The notes beneath the pieces were generated by a model. That model worked only from the letters and a program-made list of their open reading frames with translations, did no database searches and had not been told where the DNA came from. Made by a program: the position numbers and the translations under genes. DNA of 64,000 nucleotides, from positions 4,786,001 through 4,850,000 of the forward strand of contig NZ_CP114904.1 of the NCBI RefSeq assembly GCF_027497215.1. Direction: 5' to 3'. Origin of the DNA: Micromonospora sp. WMMD812 (GTDB lineage: Bacteria > Actinomycetota > Actinomycetes > Mycobacteriales > Micromonosporaceae). This document shows positions 10,860 to 51,163 of the stretch, piece after piece (the first letter of the stretch is position 1; each line of letters starts with the position of its first letter).

Positions 10860-11657
10860 TCAGCGGTTCCAGTCCTGCTTCGCCGCGCGGACCAGCTTGT
10901 CCTTCAACTCCCGGGTGTGCCGCCGGCTCACCGGCAGCTCGGTGCCGTCGATCACCACCACGTAGCCGGAGTTGACCAGCCGCAGCTCGGCGATGAGCTT
11001 CAGCTGCACCAGGTACGACCGGTGGATCCGGACGAAACCGGCGTCGGCCCAGCGCTCGGCGAGCGTGGCCAGCGAGACCCGGACCAGGTGCGAGCCGTCC
11101 CCGGTGTGCAGCCGGGCGTAGTCGCCCTGCGCCTCGACCCAGCGCACCGCCGAACGGGGCAGCATCCGGGTCGTGCCGGCCAGCTCGATCGGGATGGTCG
11201 GGTCCTCCTCCGCCCGGGCCAGCGCCGCCGGGTGCGACGGCACCACCCGAGAGCCGATCACCCGGCGCAGCGACTCGGCCAGCCGCTCCGCGCGTACCGG
11301 TTTGCGCACGTAGTCGGTGGCCCCGAGGTCGAACGCGTCGACCGCGCCGTCGTCGTACGCGGTGACGAAGACGATCGCCGGCGGGCGGGCGAACCGGCGC
11401 AGCACCCGGGCCAGCTCCATCCCGTCCAGGCCGGGCATCCGGATGTCCAGGAAGACCACGTCCACGTCGCCGTCGCGGAGCAGTCGCAGCGCCTCGGTCG
11501 CGTCCCCGGCCGTGTGCAGCCGGGCCACCCGCGGGTCGGCCCGCAGGTGGTACGCCAGCTCGTCGAGCGCGGGCGGCTCGTCGTCGACCGCCAGCACCCG
11601 GAGGAAACCGGACGCGTTCACCGCACCGACCCGGTCGGCCCGCTCGCGCTCGCTCAC
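10860..11657 (-). CDS. LytTR-family response regulator
   Basis: The protein has 265 residues. The receiver domain has DDE at about residues 25-27, phospho-acceptor D71 in VVFLDIRMPG and Lys in YVRKP. The C-terminal LytTR DNA-binding domain spans about residues 160-262 (RMLPRSAVRWVEAQGDYARLHT, FVRIHRSYLVQL, VSRRHTRELKDKL). The start is a GTG that overlaps the stop of an upstream 20-codon mini-ORF (GTGA) and is preceded by AGGGTGGCGCC. It is the partner of the LytS-like kinase at 11772-12998, with two 59-bp repeat units in between. Confidence 0.95.
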   Translation of the reverse strand: MSERERADRVGAVNASGFLRVLAVDDEPPALDELAYHLRADPRVARLHTAGDATEALRLLRDGDVDVVFLDIRMPGLDGMELARVLRRFARPPAIVFVTAYDDGAVDAFDLGATDYVRKPVRAERLAESLRRVIGSRVVPSHPAALARAEEDPTIPIELAGTTRMLPRSAVRWVEAQGDYARLHTGDGSHLVRVSLATLAERWADAGFVRIHRSYLVQLKLIAELRLVNSGYVVVIDGTELPVSRRHTRELKDKLVRAAKQDWNR

Positions 11658-11769
11658 GGCGCCACCCTTGTTCGCGACTGCGGGGCTCGCAACCCCGGCT
11701 CACTCCTCGCGCTCACGGCGCCACCTTTGTTCGCGGCTGCGGGGCTCGCAACCCCGGCTCACTCCTCGC
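11652..11769 (-). repeat. two tandem 59-bp units between kinase and regulator genes
   Basis: Copy one is 11652-11710 and copy two 11711-11769; they differ at two positions. Read on the minus strand, each contains GGGGTTGCGAGCCCC, which can fold as a small hairpin. Each ends in AAAGGTGGCGCC or AAGGGTGGCGCC, a ribosome-binding site 5-6 bases before the next GTG. The period of 59 equals 63 (20 codons plus stop) minus a 4-base GTGA overlap. Confidence 0.95.
11654..11716 (-). CDS. 20-codon mini-ORF in repeat copy one
   Basis: The frame starts at a GTG that overlaps the stop of the neighbouring mini-ORF and ends in a TGA that overlaps the GTG of the LytTR regulator gene. It encodes a basic peptide beginning VSARSEPGLRAPQS. 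A peptide function is doubtful. The more likely role is to pass ribosomes from the kinase gene to the regulator gene. Confidence 0.4.
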   Translation of the reverse strand: MSARSEPGLRAPQSRTRVAP

Positions 11770-11775
11770 GCTCAC
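11713..11775 (-). CDS. 20-codon mini-ORF in repeat copy two
   Basis: The GTG start overlaps the stop codon of the LytS-like kinase gene, and the TGA stop overlaps the start of the second mini-ORF. The peptide begins VSARSEPGLRAPQP and differs from its tandem neighbour by two residues. Conservation of the frame in both copies follows from their near identity, so it does not by itself prove translation. Confidence 0.4.
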   Translation of the reverse strand: MSARSEPGLRAPQPRTKVAP

Positions 11776-12998
11776 GAACCCGCCCGTACGCCGGGGTGGA
11801 ACTTCGGGACCCGCATGCTCACCTTCGTGCCCGAGCCGAGCCCGGTCTCCACGACCAGGCCGAACTCGTTCCCGAAGACCGACCGGAGCCGCTCGTCGAC
11901 GTTGGAGAGCCCGACGTGCTGGCCGGAGTCGTCCCCCGGATCGCCGTTGCTGTGGGCCAGCTCGGCGATGCCGGCGGTCAGCGTGGTCGGATCCATCCCC
12001 ACTCCGTCGTCCTCCACCGTGATGTGACACTCGGCACCGGCGTCCCGGGCCTCGATGCTCACCATGCCCGTGCCGGGCTTGCGGGACAACCCGTGCCGGA
12101 CGGCGTTCTCCACGAGCGGCTGGAGGCAGAGGAACGGCAGGGTCACCGGCAGCACCTCGGGAGCGATCTGCAGGCGCACCTGGAGCCGGTCGCCGAACCG
12201 GGCCCGCTCGATGGTCAGGTAGCGGTCGATCGAGCGCAGCTCCTCGGCCAGCGTGGTGAACTCCCCGTGGGCCCGGAACGAGTACCGGGTGAACTCGGCG
12301 AACTCCAGGATCAGCTCGCGGGCCCGCTCCGGGTCGGTGCGGACGAACGAGCCGATCGCGGTCAGCGCGTTGTAGATGAAGTGCGGGCTGATCTGGGCGC
12401 GCAGCGCCCGGACCTCGGCCCGGGCCAGCCGCTCCCGGGACGAGTCCAGCTCGGCCAGAGCGAGCTGGTTGCCGGCCCAGTGCGCGGTCTCCAGGGTCGC
12501 CTGCACCAGCCCCGGGGCGGGCGGCCCGTCGGCGACCGCGACCAGCGCGCCGACCACCCGACCGTCCGCGCCGGTCAGCGGGGCGACCACCGCGCCGCGT
12601 ACCGGGCAGTCGACCCGGTCGCAGTGCAGCTCCGCGTCGCCGAGCACCGTCGAGCGCTCGGCGGCCACGGCCCGGCGGGCCGCGCCCAGCAGCTGCTCGC
12701 CGTGGTGTGCGCCGCGCCCGTCGAGGGCGAGCAGCTCCGTCCGGTCGGTCAGCGCCAGGCCGACCGCGCCGACCAGGGCCCGCAGATGGCGTACGGACTT
12801 GGCCGCACCGGCCGGGCTCAACCCCGCGCGCAGCGGCTCGGCGGCCAGCCCCGCGGTGTGCAGCACCTCGTAGGTGGCGCGCTGGGTGGCGGTGGCGATG
12901 CCGCGCCGGGCGCGCAGCCGCCCGACCGCGAAGAGGGCCGCGACCAGCGCGGTGACCAGCGAGAGTACGGCGAAGACGGCCGAGAGGTTGCCACCCAC
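11772..12998 (-). CDS. LytS-type sensor histidine kinase
   Basis: The protein has 408 residues. It has one N-terminal membrane segment (about residues 4-24), then a GAF-like region (about 60-190) and a His_kinase domain (ISPHFIYNALTAIGSFVR, with the acceptor His in SPHFIYNAL). A HATPase domain follows with PLVENAVRHGL, EDDGVGMDP and GLSNVDERLR. This is the kinase class that pairs with LytTR regulators, and the LytTR gene follows it. The GTG start is in a region without other good candidates. The stop overlaps the GTG of the first 59-bp repeat unit. Confidence 0.93.
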   Translation of the reverse strand: MGGNLSAVFAVLSLVTALVAALFAVGRLRARRGIATATQRATYEVLHTAGLAAEPLRAGLSPAGAAKSVRHLRALVGAVGLALTDRTELLALDGRGAHHGEQLLGAARRAVAAERSTVLGDAELHCDRVDCPVRGAVVAPLTGADGRVVGALVAVADGPPAPGLVQATLETAHWAGNQLALAELDSSRERLARAEVRALRAQISPHFIYNALTAIGSFVRTDPERARELILEFAEFTRYSFRAHGEFTTLAEELRSIDRYLTIERARFGDRLQVRLQIAPEVLPVTLPFLCLQPLVENAVRHGLSRKPGTGMVSIEARDAGAECHITVEDDGVGMDPTTLTAGIAELAHSNGDPGDDSGQHVGLSNVDERLRSVFGNEFGLVVETGLGSGTKVSMRVPKFHPGVRAGS

Positions 12999-49342: not shown

Positions 49343-51163
49343 TCAGCCGGTCCGGGGCGGTCGGTAGGCGGTGACCGCGCGAGCGGCGAGCCGTTCGGCT
49401 GCCGCCGCGTCGCCGGCCGCGGCGGCGAGCGCCGCCGCCCCCGGCAGCAGCCGGGACGCCAACCGCAGCGCCAGCCAGCCGCTGGCCTGCGCGGCGAGTG
49501 GCGCCGCGAGCCGCCAGGCGGCCTCTGCCGCCCGGGACCAGGGCGCGTCGGCCGGTTCGTCGGCCGTCCGTGCGGCGTCCAGCGCGGTACGCGCGCTCGC
49601 CGCGTCGGGGTGCACCTGGCTCAGCACCAGCAGCTCGACGGCCCGGTCCGGGTGGGCCGGGTCCCGGCCGTACGCCGCCGCGAGATGTAGCACCAGGTTG
49701 GCCTGGGTCCAAAGCACCGAGGCCAACTCGGCGACCGGCGCGAGCACACCGGCGAGCGCGGCGGCTGCCCCACCCGCGCCGGCCATCCGGACGAACCGGC
49801 GGGTGGCGAGTCGGGCCAGGCCGTCCGGCGACGCCTCGGGGTACGCACTGCGGCGCCGTTCGGCCCACTCCCGGGCGCCCGGCCCGAGCGCCTCCACCGC
49901 AGCCAGGGCCAGTAGCTCCGGTGCGAAACCGGGATGCTCGAGCACCCGCCCGGCGACCGCGCGGAGCTGCGTGGCGGGCTGCTCGAGCACCCTCCCCTCG
50001 ACCGCGTGGAGCTGCGGGCTCGGCGAGGTGGGAGTGGTCGGTGCGCTTCTCCCCGGTGCGGGTGCCTTCCGGCCGACCGCCGGTTCTTCGGTGAGCGCGC
50101 TCTCCGCCGGCCGGGCCGCCCTGCTGGCGGGAGTCGCCTTCTTCGCCCGCGTGACCGCTGGTCGACGTGCCGGCTCCACCACGGTCGTAGCCGGCCGATC
50201 GACGTCCGTCCCCGATGCCTCGGGCGTGACCGGAGCCGGCCCAGTCCCGGGCATTGCCCGCCCGGCCGCGGTCGCCGCGGTCGCCTCGGCCGAGGTCGCC
50301 TCGGTCGAGGTCGCCTCGGTCGCCTCGACCACGGGCCCGGCCGGGGTTGGCTGTGCCGTCCGGTCGCCGGGCTCGGCCGGGGTTGGTAGTGCGGCGTGCG
50401 CGCTGGGCCCGGCCGGGGTTTGTGTGGCGTGCGCGCTGGGCTTGGCCGGGGTTGGTTGTGCGGCTTGGTCGGCGGGCTTGGCCGGGGTCGGCGCTGCCGC
50501 CTGCTCGGCCAGGGCCGGAGGTGCCGCCGGCTCGATCGGCTCGGCTGGCATCGCCTCGACCTTGGCCGGGCCGGCAGTCTTGCGGGCGGGGGCCCGCCTC
50601 GCGCGGGGCGCCGCCTTCTTCGCCGACGTGGCCTTCCTCGGTGCTGCCCGCTTCGCGGTCGTGTCCACCGCGGTCGCCGAGTCGCCAGCCGTCCCCGAAC
50701 GGCCAGCCGCCTCCACGGGCTGAGCCTCCGCAGCCGACGGCGCGGGCGGGCGGTCGGGCACGACCGGGGCCTCCGTCGGGTCCGGCGCCGCGGCCGGCGC
50801 CGCCGGCACCGCCGGGCTGGCCGGTGCCTCTTCAGGCGCGACTACCACGACCTCGGACGGTGCTGGCCGCTCAGCAGCCTCGTCGGCGGCCGCGCTCGTG
50901 TCCGGGGTCGACGCGGGTGGAGCCTCCCCGTGCCGTGCGGGCTGGCGGGGCAGCGGCTGGTCAGGATCGGGTGGCCGGAACAGGACGGCCGGGGCGGCCT
51001 TGGCCCGTCGTGTCCGTTTCGCCTGATCAGCGGCCGGAGGAGAGGCCGGCTCGGTGGCCGTGGGTGGCATGGAGGGCGGGGTGAACGTGGCCTTCGGGGA
51101 GCGGCGTCGCGCCCCCTCAGCAGGCTCGCGGCGGCTCGGCTCGCTCGGGGGCTGCTCCTGCAT
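49343..51163 (-). CDS. Ala/Pro/Lys-rich protein with C-terminal EcsC-like domain
   Basis: The protein has 606 residues. Residues about 1-370 are low-complexity, with Lys/Arg/Ala/Pro patches resembling histone-H1-type tails (KRAAPRKATSAKKAAPRARR, ARRPAVTRAKKATPASRAAR) and Pro/Thr/Ala repeats such as QPTPAKP. The C-terminal about 200 residues (LGPGAREWAERRRSAYP, then LHLAAAYGRDPAHPDRAVELLVL) resemble EcsC-family helical domains, with a hydrophobic stretch in the middle. The role is unknown; binding of nucleic acid or the membrane surface by the basic tail is possible. The minus-strand frame has strong GC3 bias, so it is a real gene despite its composition. Confidence 0.7.
   Translation of the reverse strand: MQEQPPSEPSRREPAEGARRRSPKATFTPPSMPPTATEPASPPAADQAKRTRRAKAAPAVLFRPPDPDQPLPRQPARHGEAPPASTPDTSAAADEAAERPAPSEVVVVAPEEAPASPAVPAAPAAAPDPTEAPVVPDRPPAPSAAEAQPVEAAGRSGTAGDSATAVDTTAKRAAPRKATSAKKAAPRARRAPARKTAGPAKVEAMPAEPIEPAAPPALAEQAAAPTPAKPADQAAQPTPAKPSAHATQTPAGPSAHAALPTPAEPGDRTAQPTPAGPVVEATEATSTEATSAEATAATAAGRAMPGTGPAPVTPEASGTDVDRPATTVVEPARRPAVTRAKKATPASRAARPAESALTEEPAVGRKAPAPGRSAPTTPTSPSPQLHAVEGRVLEQPATQLRAVAGRVLEHPGFAPELLALAAVEALGPGAREWAERRRSAYPEASPDGLARLATRRFVRMAGAGGAAAALAGVLAPVAELASVLWTQANLVLHLAAAYGRDPAHPDRAVELLVLSQVHPDAASARTALDAARTADEPADAPWSRAAEAAWRLAAPLAAQASGWLALRLASRLLPGAAALAAAAGDAAAAERLAARAVTAYRPPRTG
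50262..50530 (-). repeat. degenerate tandem repeats coding for Pro/Thr/Ala/Glu segments
   Basis: Within the 606-residue gene, units coding for variants of PTPAxPxxxA recur several times, and a GTCGCCTCGGTCGAG-type unit codes for alternating Glu-Ala-Thr. Such arrays can change length by slippage. Confidence 0.6.

Follow-up and report, generated by a model that had tools for sequence, protein, structure and literature searches.

We propose, at a probability of roughly 0.8, that the two 59-bp tandem units found between a histidine kinase gene and a LytTR regulator gene of Micromonospora sp. WMMD812 are copies of a short dispersed cassette, probably mobile and translationally transparent, that is inserted 5' of an NTGA start. 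The repetition seen at this junction is confirmed as real and beyond chance, given at least 35 matches to the unit (E ≤ 0.01) in the 7.13-Mb WMMD812 genome and copies in all 101 genus genomes searched. This repeat is termed family A in the following, and a second repeat of the same build family B.

Anatomy of the kinase/regulator junction

The window analysed comprises 64,000 nucleotides (contig NZ_CP114904.1, positions 4,786,001 to 4,850,000), and the features of the junction are as follows:

11772..12998, minus strand: upstream gene, sensor histidine kinase (His_kinase PF06580, HATPase_c)
11717..11775, minus strand: family A cassette unit 1 (59 bp), mini-ORF 11713-11775, 20 codons plus TGA
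11721..11728, minus strand: SD-like AAAGGTGG of unit 1, 4 nt 5' of the unit 2 GTG
11658..11716, minus strand: family A cassette unit 2 (59 bp), mini-ORF 11654-11716
11662..11669, minus strand: SD-like AAGGGTGG of unit 2, 4 nt 5' of the GTG at 11657
11622..11657, minus strand: apparent 36-bp in-frame leader GTGAGCGAGCGCGAGCGGGCCGACCGGGTCGGTGCG, with other leader lengths at this junction in relatives
10860..11657, minus strand: downstream gene, response regulator (Response_reg, LytTR), open from the GTG at 11657

The units (GTGAGCGCGAGGAGTGAGCCGGGGTTGCGAGCCCCGCAGYCGCGAACAARGGTGGCGCC, 11775-11658) repeat with a period of 59 bp and 97% matches. Both hold a complete 20-codon frame that starts with GTG and terminates in the TGA of the following GTGA, resulting in 4-nt stop/start overlaps; the peptide is VSARSEPGLRAPQPRTKVAP for unit 1 (11775-11713) and VSARSEPGLRAPQSRTRVAP for unit 2 (11716-11654), each followed by the stop. 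The units, their coordinates, period and frames had been read correctly from the sequence alone, as had the SD-like site before each next GTG. The kinase stop TGA (11774-11772) lies within the first GTGA, that of unit 1, and unit 2 terminates in the GTGA at 11657. Four consecutive GTGA junctions had been claimed in the sequence-only reading, which however named only three. These three stand, and the extra GTGA downstream of them, at 11621, is probably the conserved start of the regulator and not the closure of a unit. In relatives such as L052, L065 and L071 the regulator starts at the position equivalent to 11621 and directly overlaps the kinase stop, and given these starts the stretch 11657-11622 looks like a 36-bp in-frame leader rather than a closing unit. 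Annotated from 11657, the regulator would gain 12 residues if its start is GTG 11621. The junction may have a layered history, in which a plain overlap was followed by a short leader, as in several relatives, and then by the two units, in WMMD812 only.

The small hairpin that had been ascribed to each unit was not borne out. The fold z-scores of four family A units range from -0.20 to 0.56; a consensus fold of 20 copies shows a long imperfect pairing of two conserved blocks, in which none of 12 pairs is changed on both sides; and the fold energy of an alignment of 127 units is not below that of column-shuffled controls, 81 of 200 controls being at least as low. A conserved RNA hairpin, folding no better than shuffled sequence, was therefore rejected. 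Rfam at its gathering threshold gave no match at the unit site, and three tRNAs were matched elsewhere in the window. A cluster of overlapping short tandem repeats with periods of 15-69 bp lies at 50259-50534 of the window.

Dispersal, position and frame of family A

The WMMD812 genome was searched with a query of 65 bases, consisting of unit 2 and six further bases, and 40 of 43 first-look candidates were scored; two main forms of family A were evident, of 59 bp (VSARSEPGLRAPQSR...) and 56 bp (VSARSELASPAVANER...), both of length 3n-4. Copies lie at unrelated junctions such as nuoL-M-N, before bioD and before sbcD. Family A is present in 97 of 200 genomes of the Micromonosporaceae, representing 25 of 44 genera with the own genus counted, in agreement with the recurrence in this family that the sequence-only reading had suggested; a search of the genus, as that reading had proposed, gave copies in 101 of 101 genomes. 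Among 296 genomes of the class, family A was seen beyond three genus genomes only as two weak partial matches, and there was no match in same-order genomes outside the Micromonosporaceae. In this search, as in the class and outside-class searches for family B, three candidates per genome were scored, and counts outside the family or the class are therefore lower bounds. Family A was found at two places in one plasmid record and was absent from the phage records searched. On a plasmid of Micromonospora terminaliae (L332, NZ_CP045310.1) the cassette lies 5' of a glycerol-3-phosphate dehydrogenase gene, and in the annotation a lysophospholipid acyltransferase gene terminates at the first GTGA, with the next gene starting exactly 59 bp further; the upstream acyltransferase protein appears twice in this record.

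To locate the copies relative to genes we examined 100 arrays, a non-random sample consisting of 23 from WMMD812 and of best-scoring or hand-picked copies from other genomes, with a frame taken as coding if it was open over 60 or more codons and had a third-position GC of 0.8 or above (0.75 for the family B counts). The earlier picture of an element inserting neatly at gene starts agrees with the result, as 84 arrays lie directly 5' of a downstream NTGA start (67 GTGA, 16 ATGA, one TTGA) and in sense orientation. Another type of start follows 12 arrays and no start was found for four, and these 16 of 100 without NTGA count against the cassette explanation. An upstream coding frame ends at the first GTGA of the element in 71 arrays, and 62 have both this stop and a downstream NTGA start. 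In 22 of the 84 NTGA-start arrays an upstream coding stop is missing or lies at another place, yet the element is directly adjacent to the start codon all the same; the apparent target is therefore the start codon rather than the stop. Arrays consist of one to four units, with two or more in 54 of the 100, and the variation in copy number that had been anticipated is thus observed.

The earlier scans for arrays and internal units required a unit to begin with GTGA. When this requirement was dropped, 103 well-formed first units were found to begin with GTGA and one with ATGA (L155), a further exception being the ATGA at the 5' end in L213 (nuoL/nuoM). This ratio of 103:1, set against 16 of 84 ATGA downstream, indicates that the 5' GTGA belongs to the element and the 3' NTGA to the gene. 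In the same scan L016 and L036 proved damaged at the 5' end, and most other motif matches look like chance by eye.

The length of the last unit before NTGA is 3n-4 (mod 3 = 2) in 76 of 84 cases, with seven of mod 3 = 0 and one of mod 3 = 1. Within WMMD812 this holds for 19 of 22 last units and all six internal units; the other three last units are of 54 bp, which counts against the cassette explanation. Exact closure is seen in 62 of 88 internal units, and the 26 that do not close (periods 54, 55, 57, 60 and 61), likewise counting against it, comprise 19 with periods of 54, 57 or 60, in which the frame continues in register, and seven with 55 or 61. Frame closure is a rule and not a law, arrays also growing with other periods: of the prediction that copies would keep GTGA ends and frame, the 5' GTGA is present in 103 of 104 well-formed first units and lengths are mostly 3n-4, while closure fails in part of the last and internal units. 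No premature in-frame stop occurs in the 88 internal units, and three of 77 last units have one (L026, L177, L197), again counting against the explanation. A second GTGA lies 13 bp into the unit and, counting distinct copies, ends frame 2 in 71 of 72 56-mers and in 18 of 21 59-mers. The stop of frame 1 falls within the unit's first GTGA; a ribosome entering in any frame would therefore mostly meet a stop/start overlap. The GTGA at +13 may also rescue the 55/61-bp arrays. In two arrays with a 61-bp period (L161, L169) the frame closes only via this internal GTGA.

The evidence for selection on the peptide is mixed. Substitutions among the 56-mers are distributed over the codon positions as 82, 114 and 89, without a third-position excess, and this too counts against the cassette explanation. 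Synonymous changes (55/121 in 56-mers, 42/113 in 59-mers) exceed the approximately 0.26 expected, in copies that share ancestry, while 5/20 in the few 57-mers does not. Over 127 distinct units, the final 20 bases ahead of NTGA resemble an SD (mean of -10.0 kcal/mol, compared with -6.9 kcal/mol in mononucleotide shuffles), as do the 20 native bases preceding the element (-9.9 kcal/mol, 71 arrays), the energies being calculated against what we take to be the 16S tail.

A second family, and orthologous junctions with and without the element

A search of the WMMD812 genome for the short-leader motif gave eight matches, with none in the control, and led to family B, a repeat of 80 bp (RTGAGCGAGCGCAGCGAGCGAAYCAT...) with a stop-terminated frame (M/V)SERSERI... 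and an NTGA architecture like that of family A (WMMD812 loci L238, L240-L243 and L245). Of 61 genus genomes, 59 contain it. At the level of the class it occurs with diverged bodies in 41 of 296 genomes, which represent 21 of 114 genera when the own genus is counted, many of them through short partial matches only. Outside the class only short partial matches were seen, at three candidates per genome, and family B is absent from the plasmid and phage records searched. Comparison of two family A strings with one family B copy by blastn-short gave no match at E ≤ 10.

From 40 loci, including own-genus genomes and one from a genus designated g45, 38 family B arrays were recognised, 37 of them with an NTGA start, and all 37 close, at lengths of 65, 74, 77, 80, 104 and 113 bp. 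Adding the genus loci gives 73 last units, 67 of which have an NTGA start. Closure across many sizes in 64 of these 67, versus a background of 4 of 27 other NTGA sites within family B stretches, is the strongest argument for preservation of the frame as such, although these copies share ancestry and are not independent events. The three that do not close are L244 and two motif matches beginning with CTGC, the latter probably due to chance. A family B copy in L213 has an internal duplication of 30 bp, and at 110 bp still closes. The first bases at both ends are equal in 59 of 67 (55 A/A, four G/G), as would also be expected from duplication or from plain base bias. In g45, presumably Mycobacterium, a pattern search of 60 genomes allowing three mismatches gave 17 matches in 14 genomes versus six control matches. 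One of nine g45 loci read, L301, holds a single family-B-like copy of 65 bp with ATGA at both ends that closes exactly, and the NTGA cassette architecture was not seen in the other eight. A different repeat (ATGAGCGCGCGCAGCGCGCGAAGAGAGCC...), spaced at 55 bp in L310, is found in L303 and L310 of the same genus, away from gene starts by the coding test.

The kinase/regulator junction was read at 80 loci including WMMD812, from 81 (L114 having no kinase in reach), the named relatives being Micromonospora and other Micromonosporaceae. Family A occupies it in WMMD812, with two units, and in Micromonospora sp. C31 (L057), with one; in 30 of the 80 loci the genes overlap directly or are separated by at most 11 bases. 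In the 56 loci that make up the tree, a family A motif scan with up to two mismatches identified no locus other than WMMD812 and L057; the remaining 24 loci were judged by eye. Allowing three mismatches added L041, L043, L048, L049, L069, L072 and L115, which have short leaders without the rest of the unit. In L045 and L050 the 19 bases before the site are those of WMMD812 and the two units are absent, the leader being 30 versus 36 bp. In the tree of 56 kinase and regulator sequences (FastTree, midpoint rooted, given without support values) WMMD812 and L057 branch in separate parts, with unfilled sites between them.

A similar distribution is evident at nuoM/nuoN (gene names confirmed by NCBIfam best matches), where clear units, between one and three in number, are seen in seven of 30 genomes and remnants in a few, the filled junctions being scattered over the NuoM tree with fill states set by eye. 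At nuoL/nuoM, readable in only about half of the loci, three junctions are filled. WMMD812 itself (L201, C1:5340412-5342146) has one 59-bp unit at nuoL/nuoM and three 56-bp units at nuoM/nuoN. The empty nuoM/nuoN junction of L214 reads CAG/ATGA/GCC and that of its filled tree neighbour L217 reads CAG/GTGA...CTG/ATGA/GCC. This pair shows that the element comes with a GTGA of its own and does not alter the native ATG; the base that differs is at position three of the final codon upstream. Orthologous junctions without the element include plain NTGA overlaps, which argues for insertion at the start codon, and the patchy presence among relatives suggests mobility.

Proposed translational transparency, alternatives and known repeats

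In the explanation that we favour, the cassette would insert directly 5' of an NTGA start, most often one that overlaps the stop of the preceding gene. The cassette has a purine-rich, SD-like tract close to the 3' end, and with its usual length of 3n-4 the mini-ORF ends in a TGA overlapping the native start; the native SD would then serve the mini-ORF and the cassette SD the native gene. Ribosomes could then terminate and restart at each junction and pass through the units in a coupled manner, and neither flanking protein would be broken. Tandem copies could be added because each unit ends at another NTGA. The cassette is most likely tolerated because every junction would function as a stop/start overlap within range of an SD, and we infer that the architecture persists through translational harmlessness and not regulation, and that its patchiness stems from mobility rather than repeated loss.

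A regulatory role, in which copy number tunes the ratio of kinase to regulator or the units carry a promoter as in senX3-regX3, seems unlikely to us. Promoter activity of the MIRU-containing senX3-regX3 intergenic region is reported in PMC4213456, and the number of units differs between genomes at one junction (one to three at nuoM/nuoN), but the occurrence of copies at such unrelated places as nuoL-M-N, bioD and sbcD, and their patchiness among relatives, speak against it. It is very improbable that these are old, static repeats that grew by local slippage at GTGA junctions: arrays of one to four units with local differences would fit such growth, but one sequence at many unlinked places in a single genome would not, nor would filled junctions in WMMD812 and L057 with intervening tree lineages unfilled.

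REP/RAYT elements and IS200/IS605-derived MITEs are short and dispersed and have a fixed tetranucleotide at one foot, all of which is true of family A. A selfish element of the REP or IS200/IS605 kind, moved by an HUH (Y1) transposase and with NTGA target, structured ends and coding features as by-products, could explain the fixed tetranucleotide at the junction, the tandem growth at element ends and the absence of an evident target duplication in L214 versus L217. Insertion beside a fixed tetranucleotide without target duplication, as for IS200/IS605, would fit family A at this one empty/filled pair. However, the Y1_Tnp domain of RAYT-type transposases (PF01797) has no match in the WMMD812 genome and is present in five of 13 genus genomes, as opposed to family A in all 13, and a Y1/RAYT mobiliser was rejected for want of a candidate in WMMD812; the missing transposase counts against the cassette explanation as well. 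Neither conserved RNA structure nor the conserved imperfect palindrome of REP elements is found in family A, which sits at start codons in sense orientation, and target choice alone leaves the 3n-4 rule over six family B sizes unexplained. We therefore regard such an origin as quite unlikely.

Two links go beyond the sequence-only reading, namely the second family of the same build in the WMMD812 genome and the architecture of the mycobacterial MIRUs. In PMC12548453, citing Supply 1997, MIRUs are described as apparently mobile, inserting at start codons and having an internal ORF coupled at -4 nt. According to PMC3914561, H37Rv has 41 such loci, with tandem repeats measuring 46-101 bp, and PMC4213456 gives units of 77 and 53 bp at senX3-regX3, both of which are 3n-4 by arithmetic. 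The MIRU is the closest known system, and since MIRU units were compared by description, and family A was not found in the sampled order-mates, we class family A as MIRU-like and not as MIRU. The likeness rests on architecture, location, size and tandem behavior: a short tandem unit dispersed at dozens of loci, start-codon insertion in the sense of the gene (84/100 arrays and the empty sites), an internal ORF with the -4 nt overlap (76/84 last and 62/88 internal units), and, as at senX3-regX3, repeats between a sensor kinase and its regulator. The differences are the lineage, occurrence in mycobacteria having no counterpart for family A in the order-mates sampled, and the existence here of no fewer than two families, one of 56/59 bp and one of 80 bp.

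The -4 nt NTGA overlap is given in PMC12548453 as the commonest gene overlap in prokaryotes, and the junctions described here resemble those of such translationally coupled gene pairs, except that an inserted repeat multiplies them. The bicistronic design leader ORFs named in the same text are also short ORFs handing ribosomes to a downstream gene, but are engineered leaders and not dispersed repeats. No description of repeats like these outside mycobacteria was found among the matches listed in the literature searched, which lacks many subscription papers; MIRUs, best known as typing markers, are discussed in it for mycobacteria only.

The like architecture in other families, together with the 3n-4 lengths of family B over many sizes, makes coupled, translation-neutral repeats testable through statistics and ribosome profiling. 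It may also account for an annotation hazard, as cassette codons would be read as N-terminal extensions of real genes, and the cassettes, as natural bicistronic leaders, may be reusable as tools. On balance we lean towards the wider view that actinomycetes carry a class of mobile, ribosome-transparent start-codon cassettes, of which MIRUs would be the first described case, family A (56/59 bp) a representative in the Micromonosporaceae, and family B (80 bp, with variants of 65-113 bp, MSERSERI) one in several families of the class. Their bodies would diverge while selection on translation keeps the frame and both NTGA overlaps, leading to lengths quantised at 3n-4, and the cassette would spread because the ribosome hides it from the host operon.
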